A program made the translations under genes and the position numbers. A DNA stretch of 64,000 bases from Tetradesmus obliquus. Lineage: Eukaryota; Chlorophyta; Chlorophyceae; Sphaeropleales; Scenedesmaceae. Every line of letters starts with the position of its first letter. Positions within the stretch are counted from its first letter, which is position 1. Location of the stretch: positions 248,001 to 312,000 of the forward strand of contig CP126201.1 of assembly GCA_030272155.1 (NCBI GenBank). The letters run 5' to 3'. Positions 837-64,000 of the stretch are shown here, piece by piece. Below the pieces are notes generated by a model. It saw nothing but the letters and a program-made list of their open reading frames with translations. It was not told the origin of the DNA and did not search any database.

Positions 837-3800
837 TCAGCTGCTGCTGCCCCGCCGTTTCCGCAGCTCCTCCAGCAGCTGCTCCACCGCCTTGATCTGG
901 CCCTCCACTGCCGCCTTGCTGCTGTCTGCTGCCTTGTCCTCATCCACGGTCTCAAACACATGGCTGCAGCAACAGACATTGCGCAAGTGCATAACAGCAT
1001 GTACGTCAGTGCATTGCACAAGGTTACACATATCTGGAGGCAGCAGGACGAGATTAGATATTCGATACATCACATGCCTCAATCTGTGCACTCGCTGACG
1101 CAGCGGCCAGCATTTGTCATGCACAGGGACGTACGTGAGCTGCCTTAGCTGCATCCCGGGTCACGCAGCCCCCTGGCAGCAACCCATGTCAACACAGCCC
1201 TTCAGCAGCCCTCACCTGTGCACGCGCTTGTCTGAGACATGTCAACACAGCCCTTCAGCAGCCCTCACCTGTGCACGCACTTGTCTGAGACATGTCAACA
1301 CAGCCCTTCAGCAGCCCTCACCTGTGCACGCGCTTGTCTGAGACATGTCAACACAGCCCTTCAGCAGCCCTCACCTGTGCACGCGCTTGTCTGAGACATG
1401 TCAACGCAGCCCTTCAGCAGCCCTCACCTGTGCACGCGCTTGTCTGAGACATGTCAACACAGCCCTTCAGCAGCCCTCACCTGTGCACGCGCTTGTCTGA
1501 GACATGTCAACACAGCCCTTCAGCAGCCCTCACCTGTGCACGCGCTTGTCTGAGACATGTCAACACAGCCCTTCAGCAGCCCTCACCTGTGCACGCGCTT
1601 GTCTGAGACATGTCAACACAGCCCTTCAGCAGCCCTCACCTGTGCACGCGCTTGTCTGAGACATGTCAACACAGCCCTTCAGCAGCCCTCACCTGTGCAC
1701 GCGCTTGTCTGAGACATGTCAACACAGCCCTTCAGCAGCCCTCACCTGTGCACGCGCTTGTCTGAGACATGTCAACACAGCCCTTCAGCAGCCCTCACCT
1801 GTGCACGCGCTTGTCTGAGACATGTCAACACAGCCCTTCAGCTGCCCTCACCTGTGCACGCGCTTGTCTGAGACATGTCAACACAGCCCTTCAGCTGCCC
1901 TCACCTGTGCACGCGCTTGTCTGAGACATGTCAACACAGCCCTTCAGCTGCCCTCACCTGTGCACGCGCTTGTCTGAGACATGTCAACACAGCCCTTCAG
2001 CAGCCCTCACCTGTGCACGCGCTTGTCTGAGACATGTCAACACAGCCCTTCAGCAGCCCTCACCTGTGCACGCGCTTGTCTGAGACATGTCAACACAGCC
2101 CTTCAGCAGCCCTCACCTGTGCACGCGCTTGTCTGAGACATGTCAACACAGCCCTTCAGCTGCCCTCACCTGTGCACGCGCTTGTCTGAGACATGTCAAC
2201 ACAGCCCTTCAGCTGCCCTCACCTGTGCACGCGCTTGTCTGAGACATGTCAACACAGCCCTTCAGCTGCCCTCACCTGTGCACGCGCTTGTCTGAGACAG
2301 GGTCGTACGTGAGCTGGCCCAGCCTCAGTCACTGCACCCTCTGTACACAGATCACCACAAACCTCTCCCTACCTGTGTATGTGAGTGTTTCAGACAGGGT
2401 TGCACTTGAGGTGGTCGAGGTGCAGCCAAATCAGACAAATTCCACTGAAGACATCAAACCTCAAACCCCTCACCTGTGGACGCGCTTGTCAGACACGGGG
2501 TCGTAGGTCAGCTGGCCCAGCCTCAGCCGCTGCACCCAGGCGCGCGGCAGCCGGCGCTCCGCCTTGATCACATAGATGGCCCAGCGGTGCTTCCAGTAGC
2601 CCTCCGCTGCCTCCTGGGTAGTGCCCCAGGTCTTGATGATCATGGCTGCAGGGCAAAATGACAACAGCGTGACAGAAAGTGAGAATTGTATGGTACGATG
2701 TTTGGAAAGTTCAGGGCTTCCAGTCGCCCTCCACGGCCTCATGCGTGGTGCCCCGCATGTTGACGGGCATGCCTGCAGAAAAACAGGTGCCGCAAAGAGA
2801 CATACATGAACGCAGCTGGTGGTAGATGGTGCACAAATCAAGCCAATAGCAGCAGCAGTGCTGTACCCGCACCATCACCCCATCGCGCACCTATCAGCAG
2901 GTTCATGAGCAGCAGCACCACCGTGGCCATGTACAGCAGGTAGTAGATGGTGCACAGCACAGCAGCTCACCAGCAGCAACACTACCATACCATAACTTTA
3001 ACCTCAACACGCACCTATGAGCAGGTTTATGAGCAGCAGCACCACTGTTGCCATGTAGAGCAGGTAGTACATGGTGCACATACAAGTTATCAGCAGCACT
3101 ACCATACCATATCCAAAAATAACAACCACGCACCTATCAGCAGGTTCATGAGCAGCAGCACCACCGTGGCCATGTAGAGCAGGTAGTAGATGGTGCACAG
3201 CACGCTAGACAGCACGTAATCGTTCTTGCAGGTCATCGCGTACTCGTAGTGCGACAGCCCCGCGCCCAGGTTGACCAGCGTCACCATGGTGTTGCCAATG
3301 GATGAGAAAGGATCCGGCTCCGTTTGGCTGCAGGTTTGAAAAGAGATGCAAATGACAGCATGACAAGCACAGCTGTCAGCGGGAGATGTGACTTCACCAG
3401 CGTGACCATGGTGTTGACGATGCTGGAGAAAGGGTCCGGCTCAGTTTGGCTGCAGAATGCAACACAACACAACACAACACAACAGACACAACTGTCAGCG
3501 AGGGTGAAGCCAGCAATGACAGCAGAAGTGGCCATGGTGTTGCCAATGGATGAGAAACGGTCCGGCTCCGTCTGGCTGCAGGCCAGCTGTGCAATGATGA
3601 GCAGGACGAACAGGACAGCAAGCACAGCTGTGAGCAGCGGGTGCGATTAGCGTAACAATGGTGTTGCCAATAGATGAAAAGGGGTCCGGCTCCGTCTGGC
3701 TGCAGGGCAGGAAAAGGTACGACAAGAGTAATATAGGCAAGGCTGTCAGCAGAAGATTGACCAGCAGGAACGTGGTGTTGCCGATGCTGGAGAAAGGATC

Positions 3801-5853
3801 AAGCTCTGTCTGGCTGCAGAGACATAGCACGACAGGCACACATTTCAGCAGGAGGTGTTGCTTGCAAGCGTGACCATGGTGTTGCTGATGCTTGAGGTGA
3901 GGTCTGACTCATCCTCGCTCCAAGGCAGGCAAGAAATGATTAACATTAAAGGCCATGTGGAAAGATTCACCATTCACTTGTGATGCTGTTGAAGCACAGC
4001 AGCACATGCACAACCGTCAGCATGGAACCTTTGCATGAAACAGTGTCACCATGGTGTTGCAGTGATGCGATTCTCTAGCATAGGTCCAGCTGCTACTGAC
4101 AGTGTTGCAAAGCTGTTGCAACACTGCAGACAAGCTCACCTCAACTCAATTAGACCTTCCGTGTTGCGCACAACACTGCCGGGCGCAACGCCCAGCACAC
4201 CATTCTGCAGGCAGCACCGCGCAGACACACAAACTGCTGTTGGTGTTCACGCTGGCAACACTAATGCATGCGACTGCTCAACGGAATCGACAGCACACAC
4301 AGAAAGGGTTGCAGGACATCAGTGACTCCCTCTTCTGCAAGGGATTCAGAGCTTGGCAATGTCCGGTTGCAGGCCAGTTGCATTCGCACTGTCAAAACCG
4401 CAACACAGGTCCTGCAGCCCGCACCAGCTTTCAACTTCACACTGTGAACTATACTCTCACAGCCATCTTCACACCCATCTTCCCACCCATCTTCCCACCC
4501 ACCTGCATGGTGAAGAAGGCCAGCGTGAAGCCCAGGTTCCACAGCACGTACAGGCTCACAAACTTGACCACGTCCACGATGCAGCGCTCCAGCAGCACCG
4601 CCAGCTTGCCAGTGGACACCAGGCCCCTGCAGCGGGTAAACACAGAGAGGTGAGGCCTACGGCTTAGTAGTGGTTGGTAGTGGCATGATCAGATGTACGC
4701 ATGACAAGAAATATGCACCGCAAGCTTGCCAGTGGACACCAGGCCGCTGCAGCAGTCAAAGCAGATGCAGCCACAGGTGTAGGTCAGCAAAGCCTGCATG
4801 CTGTGTGTATCAGAAAAAGATGACAATGCGGCAGAGTGACTTGGGAGGGTTTGTGCAGGGCGTTTTCAGGTTTGCTGTCAAGCAACAATGCTGCTGGAGC
4901 AGCACACATGTTGTTCAGAGCAGAACGCTACCACTCCAGCTTAAACTGCAGTGGAGGGTTCCCTCCTGTGATGCCAACATAGAAGCGCTCTGCGAGCAAG
5001 CACATTGCATAAACAGGAAAACTTGGCTGCAACACCTACTTGTGCCACACTATGTTAGCAGCTGTTGCGGCAGCGCCCACCTGAAAAAGTAGATGACCGC
5101 CAGCCAGCCGCTGAGACCCATCATGCTCACGATGACGTCATCAAACTCACGCACCTGGCAGCAGCAGCAGCAGCAGCAGCGGCGGCGGCGGCGGCGGTGG
5201 CGGCAGCAGCACGCGTTACCGAACGAGCTGGTACAAGAACAAGTACAAGAGTAGGTACTCACCGGCATGGCACCCCCCATCACGCCCAACACATTGTGTG
5301 TGTGCTTATCGCATGCATCAGGAGTCCCACCCCACAGACACTCCCCACAGCCAACCGCAGCACAAGATGCCATCATGCAACACGTCAGCCCCGGCCTGTC
5401 AGCAGCAGCAATCCCACCTGCATGCTCTTGGGCCCCGGCCCTCCTATCCAGCCGTAGCTGGAGACCCAGATGAGGAAGTGCATGCAGGTCAGCAGCAGGT
5501 GCAGGTGCCAGATGAAGAGCCAGGGGTCCTCCAGCATGCGCACAGCACCCTCATAGGTGGTCTCCAGCATCGCCCGCAGCCGCGACTTGTGCGGGTCTGC
5601 AGGAATCATACATGGCAGCAGTGGCGACAGCAAGAGTAGGGTGCACGTAGCAAGTCAGCCAGGTGCACAGCCGTGACTCACGAAGATTTGCGGCAAGAAA
5701 CAATAGCAGCAGCTGGAGCAGCAGCAGCAGCCGTGGTAAGAGTTCAGCACATATTCCTAGGTGAGATGAACAGCCAGGGTTCCTCCGGCATGCGCACAGC
5801 GCCCTCGTAGGTGGTCTCAAGCATGGCACGCAGACGCGACTTGTGAGGGTCTG

Positions 5854-5895
<42 letters not shown>

Positions 5896-10127: not shown

Positions 10128-10178
<51 letters not shown>

Positions 10179-12768
10179 TCACCCGTTCCACATCCCCGGG
10201 CTGCTGTGCAGCCAGATGAGGATGGTCTGGCTGACCTCCAGCAGCAGGTAGCCCAGGAAGTGCACCACAAACTGATGCGGCAGCAGCAGCAGCAGCAGCA
10301 GCGGCGGCAGGGGAGACATACCAACATGAGATACAGCAGCATAGAATATGAAAGCATGAGATGCAGCAGCACAAGCCACACCGCCAAGAGACATAGCAGC
10401 ACAGGGACACAGCAGAACAGTAGCGCATAATAGTCGTCCAGTGGTCAACTCGAATCAAGCAGGCATGGTTGACGGCCGGCTAGAAGGCATGCGCAAGCGC
10501 TTGCCACAATGGCCTGGTGCTTGCAGTGCTGCAGCCGCAGGGAATGCTGCGTGTCTCCACAGCTGGCGCCCCACCTGTGTGCGCGCAGACTTCTCCCACT
10601 TGTGCTGCAGCAGCAGCGTCAGCAGCGGCTCCTGCAAGCGGGCAGCAGCAGCAGCACAGCAGCGCGTAAGCTGCAGTGCACACCTAAGCTCTACATTTGC
10701 ACACATGTCATAGTGCTGTTGATGCTGTTCATGATAAAAAAATACCAGCAGCAAAGCACAGCAGCAACCCACCTGCAGCATATTTAGGTGCCGCTTGCAC
10801 CGCTGGCTCGCGCGCATCCAGTCAAAGCGCCAGTCAAACTAGTCAACATCAGTCAAACAGTGGTCAAACACTGGTCAAACACCCAAACCCACCTGCAGCA
10901 TGTCCAAGTGGCGCTTGCGCAGCACCGCCTCAAGTGCGTTAGGCACGTAGCCGCCATCCGGTCCAGCTGCCTCGTCCTCATCCTGCACCGTGTCGATCTC
11001 ACGCAGCGACAGGCTGTATGAGGTCACCTGAAAAACAAAGACCCGTGGCAGCAGGGCAGTGCGGTAAGCATAGCAGCGCAGCAACAGGGCAGCCTCGTCC
11101 TCATCCTGCACCGTGTCAATCTCACGCAGCGACAGGCTGTACGAAGCGACAGGCTGTACGAGGTCACCTGCGGGTACATGAGCAGCAGTGCAGCAGCAAC
11201 ACAGGGCAGCATTTAGCAGGGAACTGTCGGCATGATTGTGTTGGTCTCACGCAGCCACAGGCTGTACGAGGTGACCTGCAGCATGAGGTAACAGCAGCAC
11301 AGTGACAGAAACGATTTGTTCAGACGTACCGTCGCTTGCAGCGTAACAATTAAGCTATGCGGTGAGCATCTCGTATGTGCCAATGCCGGCATACTGCATG
11401 CAAAGCAACACGTCATAGTGCAACCGCACCAACAGCCGGAGCAGCAGCGTTGTAAGCGTCCTGCACAGCGTAAATGCCCCTGTGCTGCTGCTGCTGCTGC
11501 TCATGCTGAACACACTTCCCACATGACGGCACCCTGCCGCACCTTGCCGAAGGAGTAGAAGGCGCGGCGCCGCCTGCTGTAAATGTGCTGCAGCATATCG
11601 GCCTTGCCCAGCTGCGCCGCCAGGCACAGCGGCGTCAGCCCGCCGTGGTTGCGCACCTGCAAGATGCAAATCGCAAAAAAAGTAACGATGAGTACGCAAT
11701 GAGACCAGCACAGGTTTGGCGATTGTACCTGCACGTTTATGCACAGCCAATGGCATGGCATTCAATCAGACAATGGCATAGCAATGAAAGCTGTCGGATC
11801 AAGTTACCCCTCGCCGCGCAGTACCCCACCAGGACGACATACATGCACGTGAAGATGCTTGCTTGAGCATGGCAGTGCAATTAGTTCAAAGTGAATATGA
11901 GAGAGCATAGGTAGTTACATGTGGGTCCTGGCACCATCTTGGATGGTATGAGTCACAACAGGTTGAACACATGGTCTGAGACCAGAAAAGGAGAGTGAGC
12001 ACCCGTAGAACACAATGCACACCCTTGAAAGTAGCTATACATTCTCGCGCGCTCACCGCCTCAGAGGCCGCGCAGTAGTCCACCAAAAAGTCGTACATGT
12101 CGGCCTGGTCGTGGATGACGCACATGTGCAGCGCAGTGTTGCCAAACTCGTCGCAGTCGCTGTTGACCTGCAAACATGGCACAAAGGGCGGCAACAAATC
12201 AAGGCAGCAGCACGCCCAAGCAAAAGGGTGCATGGTGCAGCACATGTGCAGCGCAGTGTTGCCAAACTCATCGCAGTCGCTGTTGACCTGCAAACATGGC
12301 ACAAAGGGCGGCAACAAATGGAGGTGTCATGGCAGCAGTAAGGTGAATTGTGTGGCACATGTGCAGCGCTGTGTTGCAGAAGTTATCGCTGTCAGAGTTT
12401 ACATGCAGCAGGGAAGCGCAGCAGTGATAGATGCAACGCATGTTGGCACATGGAAGCAGGGCAGATGACACTTGCGTACCTGCGCGACATACTGCCGCAG
12501 GTATCAGGCACTGCATACTGTCAAAGGCAACTCGCGCAACAACACGCAACAACCTACAAATAAATAAATACACACGTAAATCACGCCAGCTGGCTTTGAC
12601 AAACTGCTCACCTGTGCGCCGTGTCGCCGCAGGTATGCCACGATGTCCTTCTGCCCGCTGCACGCCGCAAAGCTGAGCGCGTACTCGCCATAGTACATGG
12701 GCCCGCCCTGGCGGAAGAAGGTGCCCCAAGCACGCGCACGGATGTCCGCGCCGTTCTGCGGCAGCAGC

Positions 12769-12829
<61 letters not shown>

Positions 12830-14357
12830 CAGTAAGTTGAGTCAAGGTGTAACGCACCATTCTGCAGCCGACGAGCCTGGGAGGACAGCAACAGGCCCTC
12901 CAAGGCGTCAAGCTGCTGCTGCAAGCATGACAGCACTCCTGCCGATCCTATATGCGTGTTCGTTGCTGAGCAAATATGGCGCCAATCATCTGACAACTCT
13001 GCTGTAAATACTTCCCGGCTGCTGCCAATACAAGCAGCATTACTTCACTGCACAACAGCACTGCACTGCACAGCGCTGCAAGCTCACCTGCACCAGGAAC
13101 TTGACCATGTCGAAGTCCCTGTTCACGATGGCAATGTGCAGCGCGGTCTGCCCCTCATAAGTGCCCGGCGGGTCGTGCTGCTGCTTGCGCTCCTGCATGC
13201 ATGCACGGCAAAAACAAGAGAGAGCCAGGCTCTTCAGCACACAGATAAGGCGAGCAGGATATTTAGCAGGTGACCAGCAGAGGCAACCTTGGTGCTTGCA
13301 GGATAAGACATATTGAGGCATTCAAGTCCGGCGCAACCCAGTCCCCACTGGATGCCGCTGAAACCAGAGCCACACCATGGAGACCCAAGCATCATCAATG
13401 ACTAGAGAACAAACTGATGCAACTGCAGCACACCAACCCCAAAACCAACACCATCCCCTCCACATTGAACCCCGCACCTGTATGGGGCAGTTGACCAGCT
13501 GCCTGCCGTACAGCTTGACCAGGTAGCGTGTGATCGCCAGCGTGCTTGTGATGTTGAGCAGCATGGCCACGTGCCTCACAATCACCCAGTCACAAACACA
13601 AACAGCCGCAGCTGCACCGCACTGCCAACCAACAAGACGCTCCTAACCGGCATGAAGCACATCAGCTGCACCGGCCAACTTAACACACCACAGCTGCTGG
13701 CCAAACGCATGGACCCCGCACCTGTATGGGGCAGTTGACCAGCTGCCTGCCGTACAGCTTGACCAGGTAGCGCGTGATGGCCAGCGTGCTGGGCGTGTTG
13801 AGCAGCATGGCCACGTGCATCACGTTCTCACCCACAGGCCCACGCGCGTACACATTGCAGGGCACGGGGAACAGCTTGGTGATCATCTGCAGCAGGTGCA
13901 GCACAGCAAAGCAGGCATGGCAGCACATGGCATGGCAGCAACATGGTTTGTTATTCATCAGGGATGGCTGCTGCAAGTGTACACAATGCAGGGCACAGGG
14001 ATCATCTGCGGCAGGTGCACAGGAGCGAGACAGCACAACATTAGTCAGGTGCGCTGACAGTGTGATCTGCATATGGCTGCAAGCTGCGCACACGCTGCTG
14101 AGCACCGGGTACCGGTTTTGAATCATCTGTGTGCCGCGCAGCAGCATGCCGGCACAACCGCAGCAGCAAAACACCGTCACTTGCTTAAAAGTTGGTAGTT
14201 AGTAGTAGGCTGTGGTTTGCAGGTGGCTTGCGTGCGGGCTGAACAGAGCAGATGGCGACAGCGGTCTGCAACTGTGTGGTGTTGGTAACGTTGAACAACT
14301 GCCGCTGCCTTGGCCTGCTGCGTATGCTGCATGCCAGACCGTGGGATCGGCGGTCTC

Positions 14358-14389
<32 letters not shown>

Positions 14390-18560: not shown

Positions 18561-18599
18561 CTCATTCTGGAATGCTGTGGCCCCAAATCCTGGCTGTAC

Positions 18600-19326: not shown

Positions 19327-19381
<55 letters not shown>

Positions 19382-38200: not shown

Positions 38201-39684
38201 TGTGGCCCCAGGATGTCCTGCAGCACAGTGACAATATGCACAGTGAAGCGACATGAGTGAGGCAGCAGCCTCTCGCTCCCCAGCAAGAGTGAGACGGATC
38301 AGCGTGCTCTCCCAGCTTGCAGCCAGCCCAACCATGCACTGGCAGGCACACAGGCGTACATCACTGCACAGTTTGAATGCATCAGCAGCCAGCCGCCTGC
38401 GCTCACCCGCATCTCCCAGCGCCGCGTCCTGTTGTTCTTGTACTCCTCCAGCAGTGGGTCCAGCCGGCCGCCCACACTCGGCGAGCCCATGCCGCCATCA
38501 TCACAGCGCCCTCCACTGCTGCGGCCGCCGCCGCTGCGGTCGCAGCGCAGCCGCCGGTCTGTCTTGAGGTCAGCCAGGGGGTGCTGGCACGGACCGCCGC
38601 GGCCAGCGTTGCGGTTGCCAGAGCCGGGCTCCTGCAGGGCGACAGGAAAGATTAAACTCGTTAGGTTGTGAATGTGGTTGTGGTGAAAGGGATGAATATG
38701 GAAAGCGACAGTGTGTAGGCAGGAAAGCCATTGAGTGTGTCAGCAGATGGTACAGCAGGGCCAATCGCAGAGCGGAAAGAACGAAAAGTCAGGCAAGCAT
38801 GTGCTAACTGGTTTGGCAGCTGAGCATGCATGCCAACACGCCAAGCGGTGCAGCAGCGCGCCACTCACGTCCTGGTTGGTAGCTGCTGTTGCAGCCACTG
38901 CCGCCGCCGCAGCAATGTTGGCGATTGCCGTCGCCGGCATGCCTGCCTGCCACTGCTGCTGCGCGGACGCGCAGAAGGCTGCCATCTGCTGTGGGTTCAT
39001 CATGGAGAACATCATGGGGTTGGCCATGCCAGGCATGTTGGGCAAGCCGCCAGCAGCCGGCACCCCCGGCATGCCCATGCCACCTCCCGCGTTGTTCATC
39101 TGGGCCATCATGCCCAGCTGCGCGTAGTACATCAGCATCTGCATCTGGTTCATGCCGCCCACGCCTGTGAAAAGTAGCAGGATACGCAGCGGTACAAGCA
39201 GCAGCAGCAGGATGGTGAGCAGGAAGCATGCCAGCAGCAACATGTAGACATTGCACCCAACAAGGGCAACAAGCAACAGATGCGGAAGGTGGCAGCTGCT
39301 GTCCCTGACATAGTTACAAGCACAGCATGCAACAGCTGACAGCGCGCCAGTCAACACAGCTGCAGCAGCAGGCCGCACCTGCTGCAGCAGCATCCGGCAT
39401 CATCGGGGGCATCATGTTGTAACCCGGCAGGCCAGCAGCAGCAGCCTGCATGCCTGCATCAGCCGGGTTCATGCCAGCCATCAGCGCAGCAGCTTGTGCC
39501 ATAGCAGCAGCCTGCTGAGGCGGCAGCCCCGCTGCGCCTGGCAGCATGCCCGACTGCACCATCTGCAGCGCAGCCTGCTGCTGCTGCAGCAGCATCTGCA
39601 TGTTGGCTGCAGCCATGTGGTCCGGGGTGCCGCAGGTGGTGGCAACACCGCCCAGCGGGAAAGCGTCCAGCCCGCTGATGCCCT

Positions 39685-45056: not shown

Positions 45057-45768
45057 ATGCCCTTTCGGGAGCTGCTGGTTGCCGACACAGATGAGGCCGC
45101 GCTGTCGCCTAGCCTTAAGGGCGGCCTGGCAGTGGCGGTGGTGCTGGTGGTGGCCATTGCAGGCATCATGAGCGGGCTCACGCTGGGCTTGGTGAGTAGG
45201 GTTTATCCTAGCCTGTGGTTGTAGAGGCCACTGAAGTGTAGTGTACATGCGCTGTGTTTGCGGTTGTCACACACTGCTGTGTGTGTATGCCAGCAATTGC
45301 CCTTGACCAGCTTCAGGGGCCTCCGCTTGAGTGTGGTTGCCTCATGCGCAGGCTGGTGCTGGGCCTGGTGCGTGGGGTGTTTCACTATGTTTATCGCTGT
45401 GTTGTGTTGCTTGTAGCACATACGCGATGTGTGGGGCTGTGAAGGAATAGTGTGTGCGCCAGCACGCGATGCGCCAGTATCCGCAGTCGCACTTCGACCG
45501 GGGCTGGCCCGGTGCACGCAGCAGCATGTCAGCTATCGGAACTAGCATCACTGTTGCGGTATGTTTACGACGCGCCATGGCTGCTGTTCTGTGTGCTTCC
45601 CTTGTTGCTCTGCCTGCTGCTGCAGCTGACGCTTGACCGGCTGGACCTGGAGCTCATGATGCGCACAGGCACGCGCAAGCAGCACAAGTTTGCGCGGCGG
45701 CTGCTGCCGCTCATCAGCAACCCGCACTGGGTGCTGTCCACGCTGGTCATCTGCAACACAGGTGGGAC

Positions 45769-45832
<64 letters not shown>

Positions 45833-48800
45833 TGGCAGAGGTGGCAGCAGCAGCAGCAGGGAGCAGCAGCAGCGCATGCACGCCCTTGGTAGTGGTAACA
45901 CCAGCAGCGATTGTGTGCTGGCTGCATTGCAGGGAGCAGCAGCAGCAGCAGCACAGGCATGCGTTTGTGCAGCAACAGCAGGTACACGTTGCAAGCAGCT
46001 TTACTAAGTCCTCTTTCATTTCGTGCCTGCAGTCGCGGGCATACTGCCGCAGCTGTGCCTGGACTGGCTGGTCAATGCATGTTTGACACACCACTGCGCC
46101 ATGCTGTTTGTAAGACAAGGTCTCGATTGACTTGTCCTTCTGTTCCTGCCTGCAGCTGCGGGCATGGCGCTGCCGCTGTGCCTTGACCGGCTGGTCAACG
46201 TGGGCGTGGCGCTGGTGCTGTCCACCACAGCCATCGTGCTTTTCGGGGAGATCCTGCCGCAGGTGGGTGTCCTTAATGCAACACAAGGCCGCGTTGCTTA
46301 GCTTCTGAGCCCTGCTGCGTGCTTGGGTGCTAATAACAGCAGCCTGTCTGTGATGTGGCTGCTGTATGGGCAGCTCCGCACAGCATTGTGGCCGCATTTA
46401 TGCATCATTGGACACATCCACTCTCACTTGTGTACCTGTGCCTGTGCCTGCATGTGTATGCGTGGGCTGCAGGCGGTGTGCTCGCGATACGGCCTCAGCA
46501 TCGGCGGCCACGCAGCGCCGGTGGTGCGGCTGCTGATGTGGCTGACTGCGCCGGTCTCCTGGCCCATCGGCAAGGGCCTGGATTGGATGCTGGGCAAGGA
46601 GAATGTCACTTTTGGCAAGCGGCAGATCCGCGCGCTTGTGGACTTACACAGGGAGTCCACAGGGCTAGGCGGCCCCTTGAATGAAGAAGAGTTCCACGTC
46701 ATTCAGGGTGTGCTGGACCTGGGCAGCAAGACGGGCCGCAAGGCCATGACGCCGCTGGAGGCAGCCTTCATGCTCAGCACTGATGATGTCATCGACAGGT
46801 GGGTTTAATATGCATGTGATTCTTTTCAAAACCGTTAGCGCCAGCAGCGGCAGCAGCAGCAAGGCAGCCTTCATGCTCAGCACCGCACTGATGACGTGAT
46901 CGACAGGTGTGTTTGAATTTGTGTGTACGTGCGCGTGCATTTTGTGCAGGCTTGTTGAACGGTGGCAGCAGCAGCAGCAACACTGGGACAGTTGCTTGGC
47001 GCAGCCTACCATGGTGCTGGGCGGCAGCTTTGTGTTGGCACTCTCCACGCACTGGTTGCTGCCTGACAATTCGTTGCAGGCCAGCACTCCTACATTCACG
47101 TTGTGTCCATCTATAGCTCCAGCCATTTTAATAGTTCAACTCCAACACCCTCGAATTTCTGCTCACACCATGCTGCTGCTGCTGCCACAGGCCCACGCTG
47201 CGCCGCATCCTGGAGTCCGGCCACAGCCGCCTGCCTGTCTTCCGCGACAGCAACCGCTCCGACATTTGGCCCATCCTCTGACATTGCCGCTGCTGTCCCC
47301 GCTGCTGCTATGTTGCTGCCACAGGCCCACGCTGCGCCGCATCCTGGAGTCTGGCCACAGCCGCCTGCCTGTCTTCCGTGGCAGCAACCGCTCCGACATC
47401 ATCGGGCTCATCCTGGTGAAGGAGCTGCTGGCAGTTGTTGGGCTGGCTGAGCCGGGCGCAGGGCCTGTGCCAGTGAAGGAGCTGCGCATGAGGGACCTGC
47501 CTGCGCTGCCTGTGGAGACAGCCATGACAGACCTGCTGAATCTGTTTCAGGTGCGCTGCGTCGCGTGCTGTTGATTCGTCTGCCATGCTTCAAGCTGCGC
47601 ATTGCGAGCTGTACTATGTTGCTTGTGGCGTACGGCTGGTTGTTCAAGATGCGCCTGGCATGGCTTGGAACACACTGTTTTGTCATGCAGTGGGCTTGCT
47701 TCGTATGCGTTGCGCAAGCATCTGCAATGCGCACCCACACCCGGCTGCTGCTGCTGCTGCATTTTTGCGCAGACTGGCCACAGCCACATGGCGCTGCTGT
47801 ACCAGCTCCCTGGCGCCAAGAGCACCACCGGCAAGCGCCGCACCAGCAGCAGCGCCCGCAGCGTCTCCGGCAACAGCACGCGCCGCAGCAGCAGCGACAG
47901 CGAGCGCAGCAGCAGCAGCAGCGAGGCTGGCTCGCATGGCAGCTTCAGCAGCAGCAGCAGCCGCAGGAGCAGTTTTAGTGGGAGTGAGAGCTCTGAGCTG
48001 CCCCGGAGCCCCAGTAAGGCCGGGAGGATGGCTTCTTCGCTGCTGCAGTGCTTGGGCAGCAAGAGATTCACGCATGGTGGCAGCAAGAAGGTCACCATGC
48101 ATGATGACATTGAAGCCGACTCAGCAGCAACAGCAGACGCTGCCCACGCTGATGCAGCCAGTAGTCAACAGCAGCAGCAGCAGCAGCAGGAGGCGACAGA
48201 TGCATCGCATGATGCTGTCGCCCCTGCTGCTGCTGTTGGTACTGGTGATCAGGTTGTGATCGAGCTGGGCCCTCTTGCCACAGCCACAACAGCAGCAGCA
48301 CCAGCATCTGCAGCAGCCGCTGTGCCTAGCAGCCCTTCCAGTCCTTGGAAGATCCCTGCCAAGCCACGCCAAGCAGCAGCAGCAGCAGGTGCCACCAGCG
48401 CACCTGACACGGGCTTGTCAAACCCAGACAGCAGCAGTAAACAGCCTCCTGCAGCAGCGGTATCAGCCGTTGGAAATGACGCTAGTGCCACAGCTGCTGT
48501 AGCAACTGATGTGGCTGGGGCCAAGGATGTCTCACTGGCCAAGACGGGTGTTGGCGCAGCGCTGGGGCGCAGCAGCGTGTATGGCATGACTGGGGCTGTG
48601 CCTGTGGGCATCATCACGCTGGAGGATGTGCTGGAGGAGCTGATGCAGGTGGGCACATGCTGTGTTTGACTTTCCAATTGCTGTGTTTGACTTGCGAATC
48701 GCTGTTGGAATGATGACAGTTGTGCCTGTGAGCATTGTGCTGGAGGAGCTGATGCAAGTGGGTTGCTTGGGTAAGCTTTGCTTTTTTTGGCGGTTGAGAT

Positions 48801-49549
48801 GATCGCTGGTGCAGCTGTCTGGTGTCGGTTGGCATCATCACACTGGCAGATGCCTTGGAGGAGCTGATGCAGGTGGGAAGCTTGGTTTAGAGACTGATGA
48901 CTGGCGCTTGAAAGCGTGTCTGGTTTATGCAAGTGTGACTGGTGTCCAAAGTTGACTGCTGTTGACAGGTACGCTTGGTGCATTTCATGCGTTGGGATGG
49001 TGCTACAGCTGAGGTTCTCGGCATTCCAGTTGCTGCTGCTGTCGTGCATGCTGTTCCCTGTTCCCTGTTGTCTTTTGTTCGCAGGATGTTTTTTTGGTGA
49101 GGAAGTCAAAGGGCTCACCAATGCATATGTGCTCACCATCAACCTGCCTGTCTGATTGCCCTTGCTTCTTGCAGGAGGAGATCGTTGACGAGACGGACAA
49201 CGAGCCCATCAATGCGCGCGTGCTCACCATGAGCCTGAGCCCAGGCATGCGCCGCCTGCTGCTGGCCTCGCAGCAGCGCCAGGCGCAGCGCAACCTAGGC
49301 TTCCCAAACCCAGCCTCACCCGGAAATGGCGGCGCCTGCAGTCACGGGGACACGTGCTCCGCTCTGCCTGCCACAACTGTCACGGTGCTGACGACGACGC
49401 GGGCGGGTTTAGAAGGCGGCAGCAGCCACCATGTTGCAACGGCAGCTGCAGCAGCAGCGACGGCGGCAGGTGCCAGCAGCAGCAACAGCGGCAGTGCTGT
49501 GCCTGTGCAGGCTGGGACCAAGGTTGCACTGGTGCAGCCCAAGCAGTAA
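45057..49549 (+). CDS. DUF21-CBS domain membrane protein (CNNM/CorC-like)
   Basis: Predicted integral membrane protein of the CNNM/CorC group, linked in other organisms to Mg2+ or other metal homeostasis. Exons: 45057-45191, 45626-45761, 46156-46262, 46473-46798, 47325-47550, 47773-48648, 49175-49549, all in phase; 726 residues. The DUF21 domain spans residues ~10-190: VAVVLVVAIAGIMSGLTLGL, then LTLDRLDLELMMRTGT, LPLISNPHWVLSTLVICNT, VALVLSTTAIVLFGEILPQ and APVVRLLMWLTAPVSWPIGK. CBS1 follows (LRRILESGHSRLPVF, DIIGLILVKELL). The second CBS half ends VGIITLEDVLEELMQEEIVDETD, the family's usual sequence. Between the halves exon 6 inserts ~250 residues of Ser/Ala/Gln repeats. The start is the first ATG of the open frame; an additional upstream exon is possible. 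Introns hold echoes of exons 3, 4, 5 and 6. Confidence 0.9.
45770..45831 (+). repeat. (CAG)20 microsatellite at the start of a DUF21-CBS intron
   Basis: Begins eight bases after the exon 2 donor (45761/45762), on the coding strand as CAG. It is one of the longest pure triplet runs in the window. Confidence 0.95.
46030..46085 (+). repeat. Echo of the 5' end of DUF21-CBS exon 3
   Basis: Repeats the CTGCAG acceptor and the first ~50 bases of exon 3 (real start 46156), 123 bases upstream. It has several substitutions and a lost frame. Confidence 0.85.
46862..46910 (+). repeat. Echo of the 3' end of DUF21-CBS exon 4
   Basis: Repeats the codons for Ala-Ala-Phe-Met-Leu-Ser-Thr and the GACAG/GTG donor, 108 bases beyond the real junction (46798). 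Confidence 0.9.
47182..47290 (+). repeat. Echo of the 5' end of DUF21-CBS exon 5
   Basis: An almost exact copy of the CCACAG acceptor and ~75 bases of the CBS1 exon (Pro-Thr-Leu-Arg-Arg-Ile-Leu-Glu-Ser-Gly-His-Ser), 134 bases upstream of the real start (47325). The copy then loses frame. Confidence 0.95.
48715..48880 (+). repeat. Two echoes of the 3' end of DUF21-CBS exon 6
   Basis: The end of exon 6 (Leu-Glu-Glu-Leu-Met-Gln plus donor at 48648) recurs with junctions near 48757 and 48872. The steps are 109 and 115 bases. Confidence 0.9.
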
Positions 49550-52078: not shown

Positions 52079-52109
<31 letters not shown>

Positions 52110-53681
52110 GGGGGCAGCAGCAGCAGCAGCAGCAGCAACAGCAAGATGTGCCGCCAAGTGGCAAGCCTGTGAGCTGGACAGGCAGCTTAGTGCTGCGCAT
52201 GCAGCCTGACTCGGCAGCAGCAGCAGGGATGGCAGCGGTGGAGGCCTGGCACTCCTGGGACCCTCTGTTCCTGTACCAGCAAGTGGGACTGAGCCCCAGC
52301 AGTGACGTGCCTGAGGCCCCACCAGCAGCACCTGTGGCAGTGCAGGATGCAGCAGCAGCAGGGCCAGCTGCAGCTCAAGTGGCATCAGTGTCAGCAGAAC
52401 CGGCAGCAGCAGCAGCAGCAGCAGCAGATGGAGGCAGCCAGCCAGAGGCACGCAAGGCAGTCGTGCAGCAGTACTTTGACATCTACAACAGTGGTGAGCC
52501 GGTAGAGAGAGGAGGTCACATGTGGGCCTTGGCACCATCTGCAGAAGGCGTCGTTCCATGCAGACTTGCACAGTCATTACCAGCCCAGTCCGCATATGCC
52601 TATGCCATGAAGTGCAGCAGTGGGACTGTTGCTGGGGCAGCTTCGACTGTGCAGCACACCCCCGCCATGCTGAGTCACACTTTCTGGCATATTGTGAATT
52701 CTTGCGCTGATGCTGCCGCTGCTGCTTTTGCCATTGTCCATGTTGCTGCTGCCGCAGGCGACTTTGCCCGGCTGCCGTCCATCGTGCACCCCTCCTACCA
52801 CTACTATGGCCTCATTGACCTGCAAGGAGCACAAGGCGTGGCAGGCATGCAGGCGATGATGGCTGGCTGGTGGGATGCGCTCTGCCCCTTCAACATTGGT
52901 GCTGACTGGATGCTGGCAGCGGAGGGTGGCAGGGTGATCTTCAGATGGGTGGTGCAGGTGAGCAGCGGTGGTGCTGAATGCAGTACAATTGCACCATAGT
53001 ATGTTGCTTGCAGGAAGGTTTGATACACATAACCAGAGGGTGCAGCAGGTTGTATAGGTTGCAAGAGAACAGCACAGGTGTAGCAGGGAGTGGCGGGCAT
53101 GCAGGCGATGATGGCTGGCTGGCGGGATGCGCTGGCACCTTTCAGCATTGGCGCTGATTGGATGCTGGCAGCAGAGGGAGGCAGGGTCATCTTCAGATGG
53201 GTGGCGCAGGTGAGCAGAGGCGGTGTTGCTGGCACACTGCTGCTTGCAGGAGGCCTTTTACGCCAGAGTTGTGTTGGGCAGATGTTGTAGCTGACAAAGA
53301 AGAGGCCACTTTTCAACAGCACACCAGAACTGCACGTGATGGTTGTGGCTGGCAGCCTTGCATTCAGCTGGCACTCCTGCGTGCGGGCTTGCAATCAGCA
53401 TCTTCATTGGCGTTTTGTTGCTGTGCCTGCTGCCCTTGCAGGGCCTGCACACCAAGGCGCCACTGCGCGGTGTAGCAGCAGCCCCTGGCCTGGATGGACA
53501 GCCAAGGAGAATCTACTCCTGTGGTGTCACAGCCCTGAGCATCACCAGCAGCAGCAGCAGCAGCAGCACTGCTGGTGGTGATGGTGCTGAGCAGCAGCAG
53601 ATCTGGCGCAAGGTGTCTCATGCCAATGGTGCAGAGCTGCTGCGGCAGCTGGGGGTGTTTGGCTTCCACGTGACAGAATGA
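51624..53681 (+). CDS. Protein with two SnoaL/NTF2-like domains
   Basis: Exons 51624-51734, 51794-52493, 52758-52957 and 53442-53681 join in phase to 416 residues. The first half has the SnoaL-like pattern: a helical start, then strands VSVEDHHILLYYTAAGTHTRP, SWTGSLVLRMQPD and AAVEAWHSWDPLFLYQQVGL, the last like the closing 'W..D...QLG' of polyketide-cyclase-like folds. A Gln/His-rich insertion (CAG repeats) interrupts it. The second domain begins ARKAVVQQYFDIYNSGDFAR and continues LPSIVHPSYHYYG, GADWMLAAEGGRVIFRWVVQ and ends LLRQLGVFGFHVTE. Such folds bind small hydrophobic molecules or act as scaffolds; no substrate can be named. The intron after exon 3 carries an intact-frame echo of its second half. 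Confidence 0.85.
53085..53220 (+). repeat. Open-frame echo of the 3' half of SnoaL-like exon 3
   Basis: About 125 bases repeat the codons from Gly-Met-Gln-Ala-Met-Met-Ala-Gly-Trp to the CAG/GTGAGC donor, 252 bases downstream of the real donor (52957). The reading frame stays open and most changes are conservative (for example Val-to-Ala before the last Gln). Confidence 0.95.
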
Positions 53682-55512: not shown

Positions 55513-55554
<42 letters not shown>

Positions 55555-56113
55555 ATGCTGCTGATGCTGCATGCTATTGTTGGCCCTTGCTATGTGCTGT
55601 ACATTGAACGCAGTGATAGGCAAGCAATGCAGATGCTGCTTCCATGCATTCCAGCGGTTGGCGTGCTTGCTGCAGCCGATGCAAGCATAACTGCAGATCT
55701 GGCAAACAACCGCTTCCTGATGTCACCTTGGATGACCTGTCATATGCCGCATGCAGGTTTGTGGCGTTCTTCTCTGTCGCGTTTGTGGCGTACCACATGC
55801 GCACCCACCACGGCTACAGGTCGCTTCCTGAGGCCATCCATGCACGCTACGGCGGGCTTGCTGCCATCGCTTTTGGGCTGGCTGTTGCGTACAGGTCAGC
55901 ATGCTGCTGCTGAGGTTGGCAGTGGCTTGTTTGCTTGCACCATGCTGCGCAGCAGTGCACGTACATCCTCCATCTCTTGCAAGGATGAGCGTTTTGTCAC
56001 ATGCGGGTCAAGCCATCATCCTGAGAATGGACTGTTGCACCCGGTCCAAGCAGCTGCAGGCTGCCCACCTCCAGGACAACACTACACTGCTGCAAGATAG
56101 TATCAAGTTGCTG

Positions 56114-56154
<41 letters not shown>

Positions 56155-59100: not shown

Positions 59101-62100
59101 GCAACTACACAGGTTTGTTTGAACAGTTTGCAATGTTTTGTGTGTGTGTGTGTGGTTGGGGGTGGGGTTGGGGTTGGGCTGTGTTAGCTGCAGCGTGTTG
59201 GGTGGTGGTGGGGCTGGGTTTTGTCCGGCAGCTTCCTGCAAACACACAGTCACCCTTGCATAAGGGGGCATGCATGCATGGTTGGTGTATCGCAGTTGGT
59301 CGTGAACCGACTGTGGCAAGCTGCATGGCAGCCTTTTACAACTACACACGTGAGCTAGTGGGAATGTTGGGTGGGTAGCGTTGCACGGCTGCCGCTTGAT
59401 ACGGAGTGCTGCATGTGTAGCCAACATCCTGGGGTGAGTTGCAAGGGTTGATTATGCTTGCAGGATGGGCAGCGGCTGGCTTATGCAGCTTGTGTTTGGT
59501 GAGCGGTTGGTGAGCACTGCCTAACAAGCACCTGAAAAGCATGGTGTATGTGCTGGCCTGACTGTGGCCAGCTTCATTGCAGCCTCCTGCAGCTACACAG
59601 GTTTGTTTCAGTAGGGTGTAGCATTGTGTGTGCGTGTGGCCGGGGTGGGGATGAGGGTGGGCTGCGCTGGCTGCAGCGTCGTGGTTGGGGGTGGGGCTGG
59701 GATTTTTCGGCAGGCCTGCCTAGGTTCTTGCAAATACACCAGTGTTTTCACAGTGAAAGTGCATACAGGGGTCTGCATGCATGGCTTGTGTATCGCAGCG
59801 TGTCGTGTGACCCAACTGTGGCCAGCTTCATGGCAGCTCCTAGGTGAGTCGATGGCAGCAGCTTGCGGCCGAGTGATGCATGTAGGTAGCCAGCTTGCTG
59901 GGGTGATGTTGCTGGGCGTTGCGTACCAGTCAGAGCTCCTTGCTCATGTCTTCCCCTCTCAGCCTCTCCTGTTTCCGCCGTGGTCACAGACGGATTGACC
60001 TATTTAATACATTGGTGGTGCCCTTCCGCGCATCTTTCAATGCAGCCATCGCATGCACCGACCTCTGTGCTGCTGCCAATGGCACCTGGGCACCAGCTGC
60101 CTGCAGCGTCAGCCAGCAGCCGCCCTGCTCTACCTGTTTGTGGCGAGCATTGACATTGCTTCTTTCGCCCTGCTGTCTTCTGTGGTTACACAACCGCAAC
60201 ACAATTCTTGTGAGAAAGCTGAACATGTGCTGCTGCGGCTCCTGCTACTACTCACCATTGTTCTGATGCAGCCATCGCATCCACCGACATCTGCGCTGCC
60301 GCCAATGGCACATGGGCACCAGCCGCCTGCAGCGTCAGCCAGCAGCCCCCTTGTGCTGCCGCGGGTGGGGCCTGGGCCCCCCGCAGCATGTGGAGCCTTG
60401 AGGGGGGCATGGACATGCTGATTGTGGGGCTGCTGCAGGGTGCACTGAGCTACCCCTTCTTCGACCCAGTGCTGACTGGTGAGCGTGATGCATAAACATC
60501 GACAGTAGATTCGAGCAGTAGTTGTTAGGTGATTTCGTAACACTGCGACACGTCCGCTATTGTAGCACCTATGGGCCCCGCCAATAAACAGTTGAGTGTC
60601 TGGTGATGTTGGCATTGGCATTAGCATGGACGCGCTCCTTGTGGGGCTGCTGCAGGGAGCGCTGAGCTACCCCTTCTTCAACCCAGTGCTAACTGGTGAG
60701 CATGATGAATGAATAGTTGAGTGTCTGGCTGGTACTGTTGGCATGGGCATTAGCATGGACATGCTGATTCTTGGCCTGCTGCAGGGGGCGCTGAGCTACC
60801 CCTTCTTCGACCCTGTGCTGACTGGTGAGCGTGATGAATAACCAGTTTGAGTGTCTGGCTGGTGATGTTGGCATGGGCATTGGCATGGACATGCTGATTC
60901 TTGGCCTGCTGCAGGGCGCGGTGAGCTACCCCTTCTTTGACCCAGTGCAGACAGGTGAGGAGTTTCCAGAGACAGTTGATAACGCACGTTGCTACATTCT
61001 GTAGGCCTTTGTTTCTGCAGCATATTTGGAGCCGCTTGATTGTGCAGGACGGCATGCTATAAGTAAGGTTCCAGCGCGTTGCGCAGGGTCATGTGTGCCG
61101 GCCCTTGCTTCATGGCAAACGCCACAGGAGCCCTAGCGCAAGGTGGTACGGTGCACTGCTTGCTGTGCTGTCTCGCCCTATCCTTGGAGGTGGACATTCT
61201 GCTTCTGCTGCTGCTCCTCCATGATGGACTGCGGGGAACACATGATGCTGCAAGTTGGTGGGTGCTGACAACTCTGCACCTCTGCTGCTGCTGCTGCTGC
61301 TGCTGCAGATCGTGCATTTCTGGGTGAGCCGCGCACCATGGTGCGCTCCTTCATCACTGGCGGCGTGATGGCCATCCTGTTCATCTTCCTGTTCTCCTTT
61401 GTGGGCATCTTTGGGGCCATGGAGGTGGTTTTGAACCCCAGCAGGTGTGGTACATGCAATTTTTCACTCTCTTTTTCTCATGGGACTGGGAAACTGGGCT
61501 GCTGCGGCGTGGCTTGACTGTTGCCGGTTGTATCTCGGTCGTGCACCTTGGGTGATGGCCATCATGTTCCTGTTCAGTTTTGTGGGCATCTTGGGGCCAT
61601 GGAGGCAGTTCTCAACCCTGGCAGGTGCGACGACATACAACCCAAACACAGTCTGAGCTCGAAGTGTCCTGGACAGGTCCCATGTGGCCAAGTTGCAACC
61701 TGCTGGTGCAGTTGGTGCTCTGCTGCTCGTTGGCTGCCATCGTGATTGCTGCCGATGTTCACAACCCGCCACTGTACACCCTGTACTGCACGATTCACCC
61801 TGCCTGCAATCGTTCTATGCCCGCAGTGTTCCCTGCGACGCCTATGCTGGTATGCTGGCCGGGCAGCCCTACGCTGTTGCACACTACTTTAGCACTGCCG
61901 TCTTTTGCCTGGTTAAACTCACCTTTCAACACAGTGGCAAAGTTACACCCGCCCACTGCTGCTGCTGCCCATGCTGCTGTGTACCCTCCTGCAACCTTCA
62001 CATTCCTGCAGTGTCCCGTGTGACATCTATGCGGGCATGCTGGCTGGCCAGCCCTACGCAGTTGCGCGCTACTTTGGCACTGCTGTGTTCTCCCTGGTCA

Positions 62101-64000
62101 ACCTCATCTTCCTGGTCAGTTCCTGCAGCGTGCTGGACTCTACCTTTGCAAGCACTTCAAAGCTGTTCGGGCCGGAGCTGTTTGGTGCCATTCTGAGAGG
62201 CAGGCCGCTGCCGCCACAGCTGGCTACTGTCAAGTGAGTGCCATTTGAACATTTTCGGTTTTGTAGCTTGTGGACCCTGGCGCCATGCGAGACAGTGTGA
62301 CTGACAACGAGATCAACATAAAACATATGCTGCCTAGCCAGCTGGCCAGAGGCAAGTGAGTGCCTGCGCAGCTGTTGCACCTTCCTGGTCAGCTCCTGCA
62401 GTGTGCTGGACTCTACCTTTGCATCAACATCAAAGCTGTTTGGGCCGGAGCTCTTTGGGGCCATCTTGAGGGGACGCCCGCTGCCACCACAGCTGGCCAC
62501 TGTCAAGTGAGTGTGATATTTACATTGGAAGGGTGGTGCTTGCATGTGGGTCCTGGCATCAAGCACGTGATACAGGCTGCGTACCCAGCTGGCTACAGTC
62601 AAGTAAGTGCCTGCGCAGCTGTGTGTTTATCTTCGTGGTCAGCTCCTGCAGCGTGCTGGACACTCTTTTCCAAGCACCTCAAAGCTGTTTGGGCCGGAGC
62701 TGTTTGGGGCCATCCTGAGGGGTAGGGAGCTGCCGCCGCAGCTGGCTACTGTCAAGTGAGTAGGAAGTTGTGAGGAACGAGGTGCAGTGCTGCTAAGCTA
62801 GCTAGGTCAGTGCAAGGATCATACACATCCCAGATTTGCTTCCCGGCAATGGACATCCTGGCATTCCATCACTTCCTGCTGCGGCCGCTGCATGCTTACA
62901 CACACTGACCTCATGTGTTTGCCGCTGCTTGTCAAAATCTGCTGCTGCAGGCACGCGTGGGTGGGCCGCTTTGCGATTGTGTTCATGGCCATTGTGGGCA
63001 CGCTGCCGCTGCTGGCGGGTCCTTCCGCACTGGATGCCACCACCATCAGCGGCACCATGGTGGTGGGCCTGGGTGAGTGAAGCACAGGCTTTTGTTTCGG
63101 TCTTTGATTTGTTTTGTTGAGTTAGGTTAATGGACTTGCAACTCAGCAGCATGTGTTGCAGTCGGTGGGTGGTGTCGCCGGCATCAAGGTGGTGGGCCTG
63201 CTTGCAGGGCTGGGCTCAGCACTTGTTATGTGCTTTACTGCACAACAGCATGTTTTGCACAGGTGCGATGGGCCCTCAGCGCTGGACGCCACCAGCATCA
63301 GCGTCACCATGGTGGTGGGGCTGGGTGAGTGACATGTTAATGATCAGGAGTGCACGCAGCAGACTGCAAATTTAGTGCATTGGGTTGGCCTGCATAGATG
63401 CGATGCTGACGCGCAGCATGCTACGTCACTTGGCAAGCAATAGCTCATTCCTGCCGTGCCTCTTTTCCCGCCACTTCTCCCTCTCTTTCCCGCTGTCCGC
63501 AGGCCTCCCGTGTTTGCGCTGACGTTCCTCAAGGGCTACCGCCCCCTGGTCTTCCACCTGCCCTCAACTCATTATGCATACACCATTGAAGTATTGCTGG
63601 TGTTTTCGCTGTGCTGTTTCCCGTTGTCTCCCGCCTTGCAGGTCCTCCCGTGTTTGCGCTGACCTTCCTCAAGGGCTACCGCCCCCTTGTCTTCCACCTG
63701 CCTTTCTGGACCGGCGTGGCCTTCGGCGTGGTCATGCAGCTCTCCAGCAGCCCAGCCTTCAAATCCTCGATGAACGTTTCCGGCTTCGCGATCGGCTCCG
63801 GGCACTACGCGACACTCCTCGGCTTCAACGTCGTGAGTGCCGTCGTGTGCTGGGCACTCGCAGGATTGGCTTTGTTGGATAACAGGGCCGGCAGAACGCT
63901 CGAGAGGCTGCCTGGAGATGAGGCAGACTATGATGAGTTGGAGCTTGCAGCAGCAGGTGATAGTGGAGATGTGCTGCCTGTGAAGGACTTGGACGCCTTC
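54562..64000 (+). CDS. Sodium:solute symporter family (SSS/SSF) transporter, 3' end outside the window
   Basis: Multi-pass membrane transporter, substrate unknown. Exons, all phase-consistent: 54562-54773, 55055-55116, 55401-55494, 55757-55894, 56157-56219, 56462-56561, 56772-56859, 58963-59112, 60272-60478, 61309-61444, 62012-62233, 62951-63072, 63642-64000 (open); 651 codons so far. Membrane segments include FLCSVAALLVAFVVMMAT, LQWFWLLLFAASTVPF, GASFGVVGGLAYSAWFVAFF, WIAAVVSTAIPAFYCF, VVKVVFLAAVVGVVGS, AILFIFLFSFVGIFGA and FAIVFMAIVGTLPLLAG. FTGGMRASLFTDVFQ matches the SSS signature (GG-[LM]-[KR]-A...TD-[VI]-[LF]-Q). RSLPEAIHARYG, EVWSNSLVVASFYG and DPVLTDRAFLGEP are other family-like stretches. 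Exons 8-9 encode a Cys-containing extracellular-type loop (CADLTVASFMAASCNYT). Nearly every intron from 7 on holds junction echoes. Confidence 0.85.
55514..55554 (+). repeat. (CTG)n microsatellite in symporter intron 3
   Basis: Thirteen or so CTG units about 20 bases after the donor at 55494/55495. Confidence 0.85.
56117..56156 (+). repeat. (CTG)13 tract forming the acceptor of symporter exon 5
   Basis: The intron ends in an uninterrupted CTG run that passes straight into CTGCAG and exon 5 (start 56157). Confidence 0.9.
57125..58625. repeat. 182-186/242-bp satellite in symporter intron 7
   Basis: Eight anchors (ggcgtcaacg) lie at 57182, 57424, 57666, 57850, 58036, 58217, 58400 and 58582. 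The first two steps are 242 bases and the rest 181-186. The long form contains an extra ~58-base internal duplication (gctcctgcagtgctgtgtg...). Each unit has a C/G-rich run (CCGGGGGG) next to the perfect palindrome CGAATATTCG, and a CTCCTGCAG that resembles an acceptor. The two 242-base units are almost identical. Confidence 0.95.
58626..58900 (+). repeat. Three echoes of the 5' end of symporter exon 8
   Basis: The start of exon 8 with its acceptor (Ser-Cys-Lys-Leu-Pro-Val-Gly-Ala-Ala) recurs near 58636, 58745 and 58866, about 100-120 bases apart, directly after the satellite. The real junction is 58962/58963. Confidence 0.9.
59290..59850 (+). repeat. Three echoes of the 3' end of symporter exon 8
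   Basis: The end of exon 8 (Leu-Thr-Val-Ala-Ser-Phe-Met-Ala-Ala-Ser-Cys-Asn-Tyr-Thr, junction 59112) recurs with junctions near 59349, 59600 and 59843: steps of 237, 251 and 243 bases. The G/T-rich stretch after the donor is also copied (about 59137-59180 and 59640-59705), so the unit is about 240 bases. Confidence 0.9.
60032..60125 (+). repeat. Echo of the 5' end of symporter exon 9
   Basis: Acceptor plus ~75 bases encoding Ala-Ile-Ala-Cys-Thr-Asp-Leu-Cys-Ala-Ala-Ala-Asn-Gly-Thr-Trp, 228 bases upstream of the real start (60272). Confidence 0.95.
60625..60960 (+). repeat. Three echoes of the 3' end of symporter exon 9
   Basis: The end of exon 9 (Leu-Leu-Gln-Gly-Ala-Leu-Ser-Tyr-Pro-Phe-Phe-Asp-Pro-Val-Leu-Thr, junction 60478) recurs with donors near 60695, 60824 and 60954, each followed by the same GTGAGC/GTGAGG start and intron sequence. 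The later steps are 129 and 130 bases. Confidence 0.95.
61547..61630 (+). repeat. Echo of the 3' end of symporter exon 10
   Basis: About 80 bases repeat the exon end (Val-Met-Ala-Ile...Phe-Val-Gly-Ile) and its AG/GTG donor, about 180 bases past the real donor at 61444. A small indel changes the frame. Confidence 0.9.
61815..61935 (+). repeat. Echo of the 5' end of symporter exon 11
   Basis: Acceptor and about 100 bases of the exon (Tyr-Ala-Gly-Met-Leu-Ala-Gly-Gln-Pro-Tyr-Ala-Val), upstream of the real junction at 62011/62012. Confidence 0.95.
62380..62765 (+). repeat. Two echoes of the 3' end of symporter exon 11
   Basis: About 125 bases (Ser-Ser-Cys-Ser-Val-Leu-Asp-Ser-Thr-Phe-Ala-Ser...Gln-Leu-Ala-Thr-Val-Lys) recur at 62385-62509 and 62635-62757, each ending in the CAA/GTGAGT donor of the real exon (62233). 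The step is about 250 bases, and the first copy keeps an open frame. Confidence 0.95.
63262..63330 (+). repeat. Echo of the 3' end of symporter exon 12
   Basis: Repeats Pro-Ser-Ala-Leu-Asp-Ala-Thr-Thr-Ile-Ser and the donor about 250 bases past 63072. Confidence 0.9.
63490..63570 (+). repeat. Echo of the 5' end of symporter exon 13
   Basis: Acceptor and about 65 bases nearly identical to 63642 onwards, but one base short at the junction, so splicing to it would break the frame. Confidence 0.95.

Follow-up and report, generated by a model that had tools for sequence, protein, structure and literature searches.

Three described processes come closest to what we report here for the green alga Tetradesmus obliquus, in which many introns hold a spare, apparently spliced-out exon edge together with its splice site, derived from small local duplications; we refer to such copies as echoes. 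The accessible part of a review describes how introns can be gained when an exon segment bearing AGGT is duplicated in tandem in the genome (PMC3443670). As far as that part goes, the echoes resemble this process in that a local tandem duplication adds sequence that is spliced out, yet in T. obliquus the added sequence lengthens introns at junctions that were already in place, a new intron position is not demonstrated and AGGT is seemingly not needed: the counted echoes lie in introns beside predicted junctions, and AGGT was absent from several of 22 exon edges viewed by eye. Besides, small tandem duplications arise from the repair of staggered breaks, the introduction of the source mentioning short (<100 bp) insertions (PMC8355091). 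Going by the accessible text, such repair, like 'patch-mediated' repair, shares with the echoes that its products are short, direct and local, which makes it a plausible birth step, but it would not account for the coding-type divergence of the echoes. Introners, finally, likewise represent intron sequence gained in many genes (PMC9860276, accessible part), whereas the echoes have no recurrent spacer family in the 314 kb studied here. Among the matches listed in a search of titles and abstract openings of the open literature, there was no description of junction echoes in T. obliquus.

The window, by which we mean the whole stretch of 64,000 nucleotides analysed, is nuclear DNA of T. obliquus (positions 248001-312000 on contig 11 of a genome of 104.66 Mb in 17 contigs); with 250 kb from 11 other places it makes up the sample of 314 kb. 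In its accessible part, PMC12571836 lists two T. obliquus assemblies with 17 contigs each, their sizes being 104.70 and 100.30 Mb. Genes were predicted with a hidden Markov gene finder written in-house and self-trained on this sample; a first run was discarded as it had taken CAG repeats for acceptors, and in the final run the splice matrices were fixed and a minimum exon length was set. The 316 introns predicted in the sample had a clean consensus (CAG|GTGAG at the donor, TGCAG|G at the acceptor), and all four joins of the model at 46164-49549 matched the homologous protein P0001, according to which this model and that at 45057-45892 are one gene. The predicted CNNM-family protein of the window is 98% identical to a T. 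obliquus protein, and the T. obliquus proteins P0001 and P0002 each depart from it at several residues, suggesting that sequences of more than one strain are probably represented.

When the last or first 90 bases of each exon were compared with the adjoining intron, an echo of the intron's own edge was found in 44 of the 316 introns (donor-side 22, acceptor-side 25, both 3) and in 17 of the 79 introns of the window. Edges shuffled among introns five times gave 0 and 0 in four shuffles and 0 and 1 in the fifth, and inverted own edges gave 0 and 0 introns; taking the edges from the intron next in order gave 4 and 2, perhaps a leak from neighbouring duplications. The basic observation of the first-pass annotation, made from the letters of the window, was that introns carry copies of their own exon-intron junctions, and it is confirmed: every pair named there is present, and matches to own flanking exons (44 of 316 in this sample, against 0 or 1 after shuffling) far exceed the shuffled and inverted controls. 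Its wording that this holds for the introns of most genes was too strong, as only 4 of the window's 10 models with introns contain echoes (4 of 9 after joining the two models noted above), the overall figure being 19 of 51. Local direct repeats were present in all 11 other places and junction echoes in 8 of them (none in L004, L006 and L022), which bears out the proposed recurrence of local duplication. The median intron length was 502.5 bases with an echo and 259.5 without, in keeping with the idea that echoes lengthen introns.

The named pairs were compared by a blastn list plus further repeat searches. The most echo-rich model of the window is that of a TRPV-like channel with ankyrin repeats, here in a green alga (837..13886, minus strand; identified by gene model and homologues, with three segments omitted by hand in the homologue search); echoes are present in 9 of its 23 predicted introns. 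One predicted intron of this gene also contains a satellite at 1185-2299 (53-base unit, 21 copies at 99%). At 3393..3813 (minus), four acceptor-side echoes form an array (3393-3449, 3532-3575, 3649-3699 and 3754-3813) next to a source edge that ends at 3327; by eye, two non-adjacent echoes of this array have in common a block of synonymous changes that encodes the same three residues. Further acceptor-side echoes on the minus strand lie at 4715..4745 (of exon edge 4595-4626, identity 0.97), 5764..5850 (of an edge ending at 5596, 0.89), 11245..11292 (of 11120-11167, 0.81) and 12240..12287 (of 12120-12167; exon part 98%, intron flank 82%), with the wider pair 12120-12292/12240-12407 at 82% and offset 120. 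At 13466..13579 (minus), a copy of 13710-13823 (93%, offset 244) comprises the exon part and 12 intron bases; it is modelled as an exon, while the homologous protein P0123 has the segment once. Some open-frame echoes were indeed taken for exons by the gene models, e.g. near 11089 and 13478, segments that are present once in the homologous proteins P0121 and P0123. Outside this gene, the minus strand holds a donor-side echo at 36371..36400 (identity 0.97), followed by its own donor-like site as judged by eye, and an acceptor-side echo at 38173..38217 of the PUF-protein exon edge 38065-38108, the intron flank of which has no clear relation (pair 38065-38110/38173-38219: 96%, offset 108).

On the plus strand, the CNNM gene carries a donor-side echo of exon edge 46759-46798 at 46862..46906 (identity 0.84), an acceptor-side echo of 47303-47399 at 47171..47265 (94%, offset 132) and a donor-side echo of 48598-48648 at 48822..48872 (82-84%; pair 48598-48653/48822-48877: 84%, offset 224); P0001 has each of the three segments once. 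The copy at 48757 was absent from the blastn list, but a separate comparison showed a weak copy halfway from the exon edge to the echo (z 7.1). Downstream, 53084..53228 repeats 52832-52976 (87%, offset 252), i.e. an exon edge plus 19 intron bases, and is modelled as an exon; 59549..59837 repeats 59061-59332 (74%, offset 488), with more copies at 59349 and 59843 that lay outside the blastn list and were seen in other repeat comparisons. A higher-order tandem array at 57150-58626 (units of 60, 184, 242 and 367 bases) sits within a predicted 2.1-kb intron. Three donor-side echoes (60624-60695, 60753-60844 and 60882-60952) of the exon edge ending at 60478 lie within 60624..60952, and 63270..63332 is a copy (87%) of the donor-side exon edge 63018-63080, both copies being modelled as exons. 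Lastly, the acceptor-side echo at 63504..63562 copies exon edge 63642-63702 and has an AG of its own; both of its counted substitutions are at third codon positions, and there is one gap besides.

The strict polarity first described, with donor-side copies after the real donor and acceptor-side copies before the real acceptor, holds across 204 internal exons: the 3' exon edge was copied 21 times in the following intron and once in the preceding one, and the 5' edge 20 times in the preceding intron and once in the following one, i.e. 41 matches in the expected intron and 2 in the other. Such a pattern has to result if a duplicated unit of roughly 100-250 bases crosses the nearest junction. After low-complexity filtering, repeats within 1.5 kb were direct in 234 cases and inverted in 5. 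The offsets of the 142 nearest direct pairs peaked at 100-140 (56 pairs) and 240-260 (13 pairs), much as had been proposed, while a separate cluster at 150 did not appear. A weak middle copy (z above 3) was seen in 6 of 21 tested pairs with offsets of 200-265; therefore, part of the second peak may represent two steps of the first.

As to where duplications fall, 90 of the 142 pairs involved a junction, 23 were intron-internal, 20 intergenic and 9 exon-internal. Their offset was a multiple of three in 8 of the 9 exon-internal pairs, as opposed to 28 of 90 at junctions, 7 of 23 within introns and 7 of 20 in intergenic DNA. Duplications thus arise widely, a purifying filter removes those within exons that break the frame, and the junction is a permissive place; a splice-targeted duplicator is not needed, because direct repeats are also found in exons, introns and intergenic DNA. 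Direct, local copies and a frame filter in exons are what small local tandem duplication as the birth step would leave. The excess at junctions could largely come from this filter and from the longer visibility of exon-derived sequence, which we argue rather than compute. It is not fully explained, however, why offsets of 100-145 are commoner in junction pairs (47 of 90) than in intron and intergenic pairs together (10 of 43; Fisher p 0.0025), although a lower bound is set since the spacer must hold a working intron end. Of a different kind are the duplications at L022-L024 (contig 1, about 5.005-5.021 Mb), which are long and near-identical (1401 bases at 100%, 901 at 97% and 610 at 98%, all direct) in contrast to the short, diverged ones; when 38 nearest pairs offset by 80 bases or more and similar along most of their unit were considered, just three had an identity of at least 95%, all of them these long ones. 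Young short duplications are missing from those 38 pairs, being either deleted fast or born diverged.

Echoes supply decoy splice sites, as had been anticipated: of the 27 acceptor echoes, 25 still have the AG, and the GT survives in 14 of the 20 donor echoes. Median acceptor scores were 6.0 for echoes, 5.9 for real sites and 0.9 for other intronic AG, and 22 of the 27 acceptor echoes exceeded the 25th percentile of real sites (other intronic AG: 0.20). Donor echoes were weaker than real donors (median 3.6 versus 5.1, with 0.6 for other GT), 8 of 20 exceeding the real 25th percentile. For comparison, tandem duplications spanning a junction were simulated on actual T. obliquus exons and introns with a unit of about 122 bases, letting the copy evolve neutrally, constraining the exon and detecting echoes as in the real data; from the latter, each junction contributed its single best echo among those that came within 3 bases of it (n=32). 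Among the 18 acceptor echoes in this set, 13 were strong and 16 kept AG, and under neutrality with equal rates the share of strong acceptors was 0.74, 0.57 and 0.46 by identity class. Acceptor retention alone is thus no proof of anything beyond drift, for it matches the equal-rate simulation and exceeds only the one with fast introns, the one that unrelated flanks would require.

Codon positions and intron flanks depart more clearly from the simulation. Differences between copy and exon fell at third codon positions in 86 of 120 cases (32 best echoes; bootstrap over echoes 0.61-0.82), against a share of 0.43-0.44 under simulated neutral decay with equal intron rates; by three identity classes, the observed shares were 0.80, 0.76 and 0.63. 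In exon/echo pairs at least 93% identical, 24 of 27 substitutions were at third positions, and the top-identity pairs differed by 10.4% there and by 0.7% at the other positions. Broader comparisons drew on 77 rows with an offset of at most 700 in which one copy was >30% coding and the other <2%. In the splice-boundary test (60 of these rows, offset at most 320), 21 pairs had few replacement changes, and in 15 of them similarity reached at most 9 intron bases beyond the splice site; random placement of the unit end would give 2.3 such pairs. For the flank and array comparisons, 47 echoes reaching within 3 bases of the junction were used: flanks 9-48 bases past the splice site had a mean identity of 0.65 (position-matched unrelated introns: 0.58-0.60), and 10 of the 47 had related flanks, at 0.72 or more. 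In the top class, flank identity was 0.63, as opposed to 0.90 in the simulation and 0.75 with fourfold intron rates; 3 of 17 top-class spacers resembled the echo's far flank (z above 3). Within arrays, whose copies are all intronic now, echoes matched each other at 0.83 in the exon part and 0.62 in the intron part (16 non-independent comparisons, 6 loci). A divergence fit, assuming an omega of 0.08 and that 0.7 of third-position changes are synonymous, attributed, in the 32 best echoes, 0.22 to the coding lineage and 0.018 to the silent one. With all 77 rows included the values were 0.19 and 0.065, while for simulated data both parts were near equal. Taken against the simulation, the third-position excess and the mostly unrelated flanks suggest that the copies were coding for most of their separate history and seem to have been silenced recently. 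The first-pass annotation had called them decayed copies. They hold 33 frameshifting and 5 in-frame gaps (77 rows), and many are therefore not coding now, but simple decay of dead copies is contradicted by codon positions and flanks.

Small direct duplications, mostly with offsets of 100-140, thus arise in exons, introns and intergenic DNA, and those straddling a junction persist, as expected if the normal exon is still spliced and the extra edge remains intronic; birth by duplication and survival through splicing are well supported. Judged by the simulation, the extra copies have not simply decayed since birth, in that both would have diverged mostly as coding sequence and the copy would have been silent only briefly. 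Of the earlier interpretation, then, local duplication, tolerance at junctions, longer introns and decoy sites stand, whereas junction targeting and simple decay do not. In the account we favour, a small local direct duplication would cross a splice junction, splicing would yield the normal exon and the extra exon edge would be left in the intron. With two exon edges at one junction, misaligned exchange by unequal crossing-over or gene conversion could follow, probably also between diverged alleles. The unit that moves would consist of the splice site, the exon edge and its own intron flank, shifting between an active place by the rest of the exon and a silent place in the intron; an echo would then be a formerly active junction, a spare lately switched off. 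Such recombination between silent and active junction units, within an array or between alleles, we infer from sequence comparison as the simplest account found; our confidence in the whole chain of duplication, survival through splicing and later exchange is evenly balanced.

Several observations sit uneasily with exchange. The mismatch gradient along the exon edge, looked for from the junction outwards, was flat, although a crossover inside the edge might leave more distal replacement changes. Mostly unrelated flanks imply a very fast turnover of intron ends, and we offer no first-principles derivation of their occurrence at a synonymous divergence as low as about 0.2. Weaker echo donors, the frameshifting gaps, some related flanks and acceptor retention at the neutral level also count against it. 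On the other side, in the two genes checked (CNNM and TRPV-like) the homologous proteins carry the segment once, which supports the exchange account. Gene conversion alone, refreshing old echoes, is disfavoured, as acceptors are strong yet the bases past them are mostly unrelated, an argument that holds only when acceptor strength and unrelated flanks are taken jointly.

The same single segments in the proteins of two genes speak against echoes being in use as alternative or mutually exclusive exon edges with both copies under selection. Such use would fit the coding-type divergence, the conserved AG and the strong acceptors, but the frameshifting gaps oppose it, and most of 22 echoes viewed by eye have no fitting second splice site at their inner edge (an AG is close by in a few, among them those at 36371 and 60753), so that we consider it unlikely. 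Improbable, too, is a one-step source, in which a diverged allele or a hybrid partner served as template for the echo or took the place of the exon, with no repeated exchange in arrays: the contrast between third and other positions in the top-identity pairs looks like that between alleles of a very diverse species, and another T. obliquus protein is about 2% different from that of the window, yet allelic introns so diverged should still align and most here do not.

Poorer still are the prospects of plain tandem duplication across the junction, the extra copy then drifting neutrally in the intron. Offsets, the frame filter and, taken alone, acceptor retention agree with it, and older, less similar echoes retain aligned intron sequence (divergence 0.19 at a first-and-second-position divergence of 0.14). 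However, even a fourfold intron rate does not bring the simulation to the observed third-position share and flank identity, exon parts are better preserved than intron parts between echoes, and both the simulation and the echo-echo comparison disagree with two halves that were neutral from a single birth date; most high-identity echoes already contradict it. That two haplotypes of a heterozygous culture were joined end to end during assembly is very improbable in spite of the allele-like differences at high identity, given that junction echoes occur not only in the window but also in 8 of the 11 further places, that identities range from 100% down to about 70% and that there are multi-copy arrays.

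An inserted element with target-site duplication was likewise rejected as the source of echoes: 128 spacer and flank pieces compared with the 314 kb revealed no recurrent family. Their 176 non-local matches came mostly (157) from three pieces, which matched triplet-repeat places where checked, and the remaining 19 were short (21-67 bases) and came from eight other pieces; one locus searched genome-wide matched only itself. A small repeated element does exist at L007:6096-6372, with identical 71-base direct repeats at its ends and 28 genome-wide matches, several near contig ends, but unlike the echoes it lies almost wholly outside gene models.

Returning to the exchange of junction units, one may go further and picture splice junctions as cassettes, with spare units, each with a private intron flank, stored in the intron and swapped by recombination. 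This extension is a tentative one that we regard as possible but doubtful; under it, exon edges would stay coding-like while intron ends would be replaced wholesale. The history proposed here would, if true, offer introns a direct and countable way to grow longer and to acquire decoy splice sites that work; it would also account for how intron ends can turn over so much more rapidly than the edges of exons.
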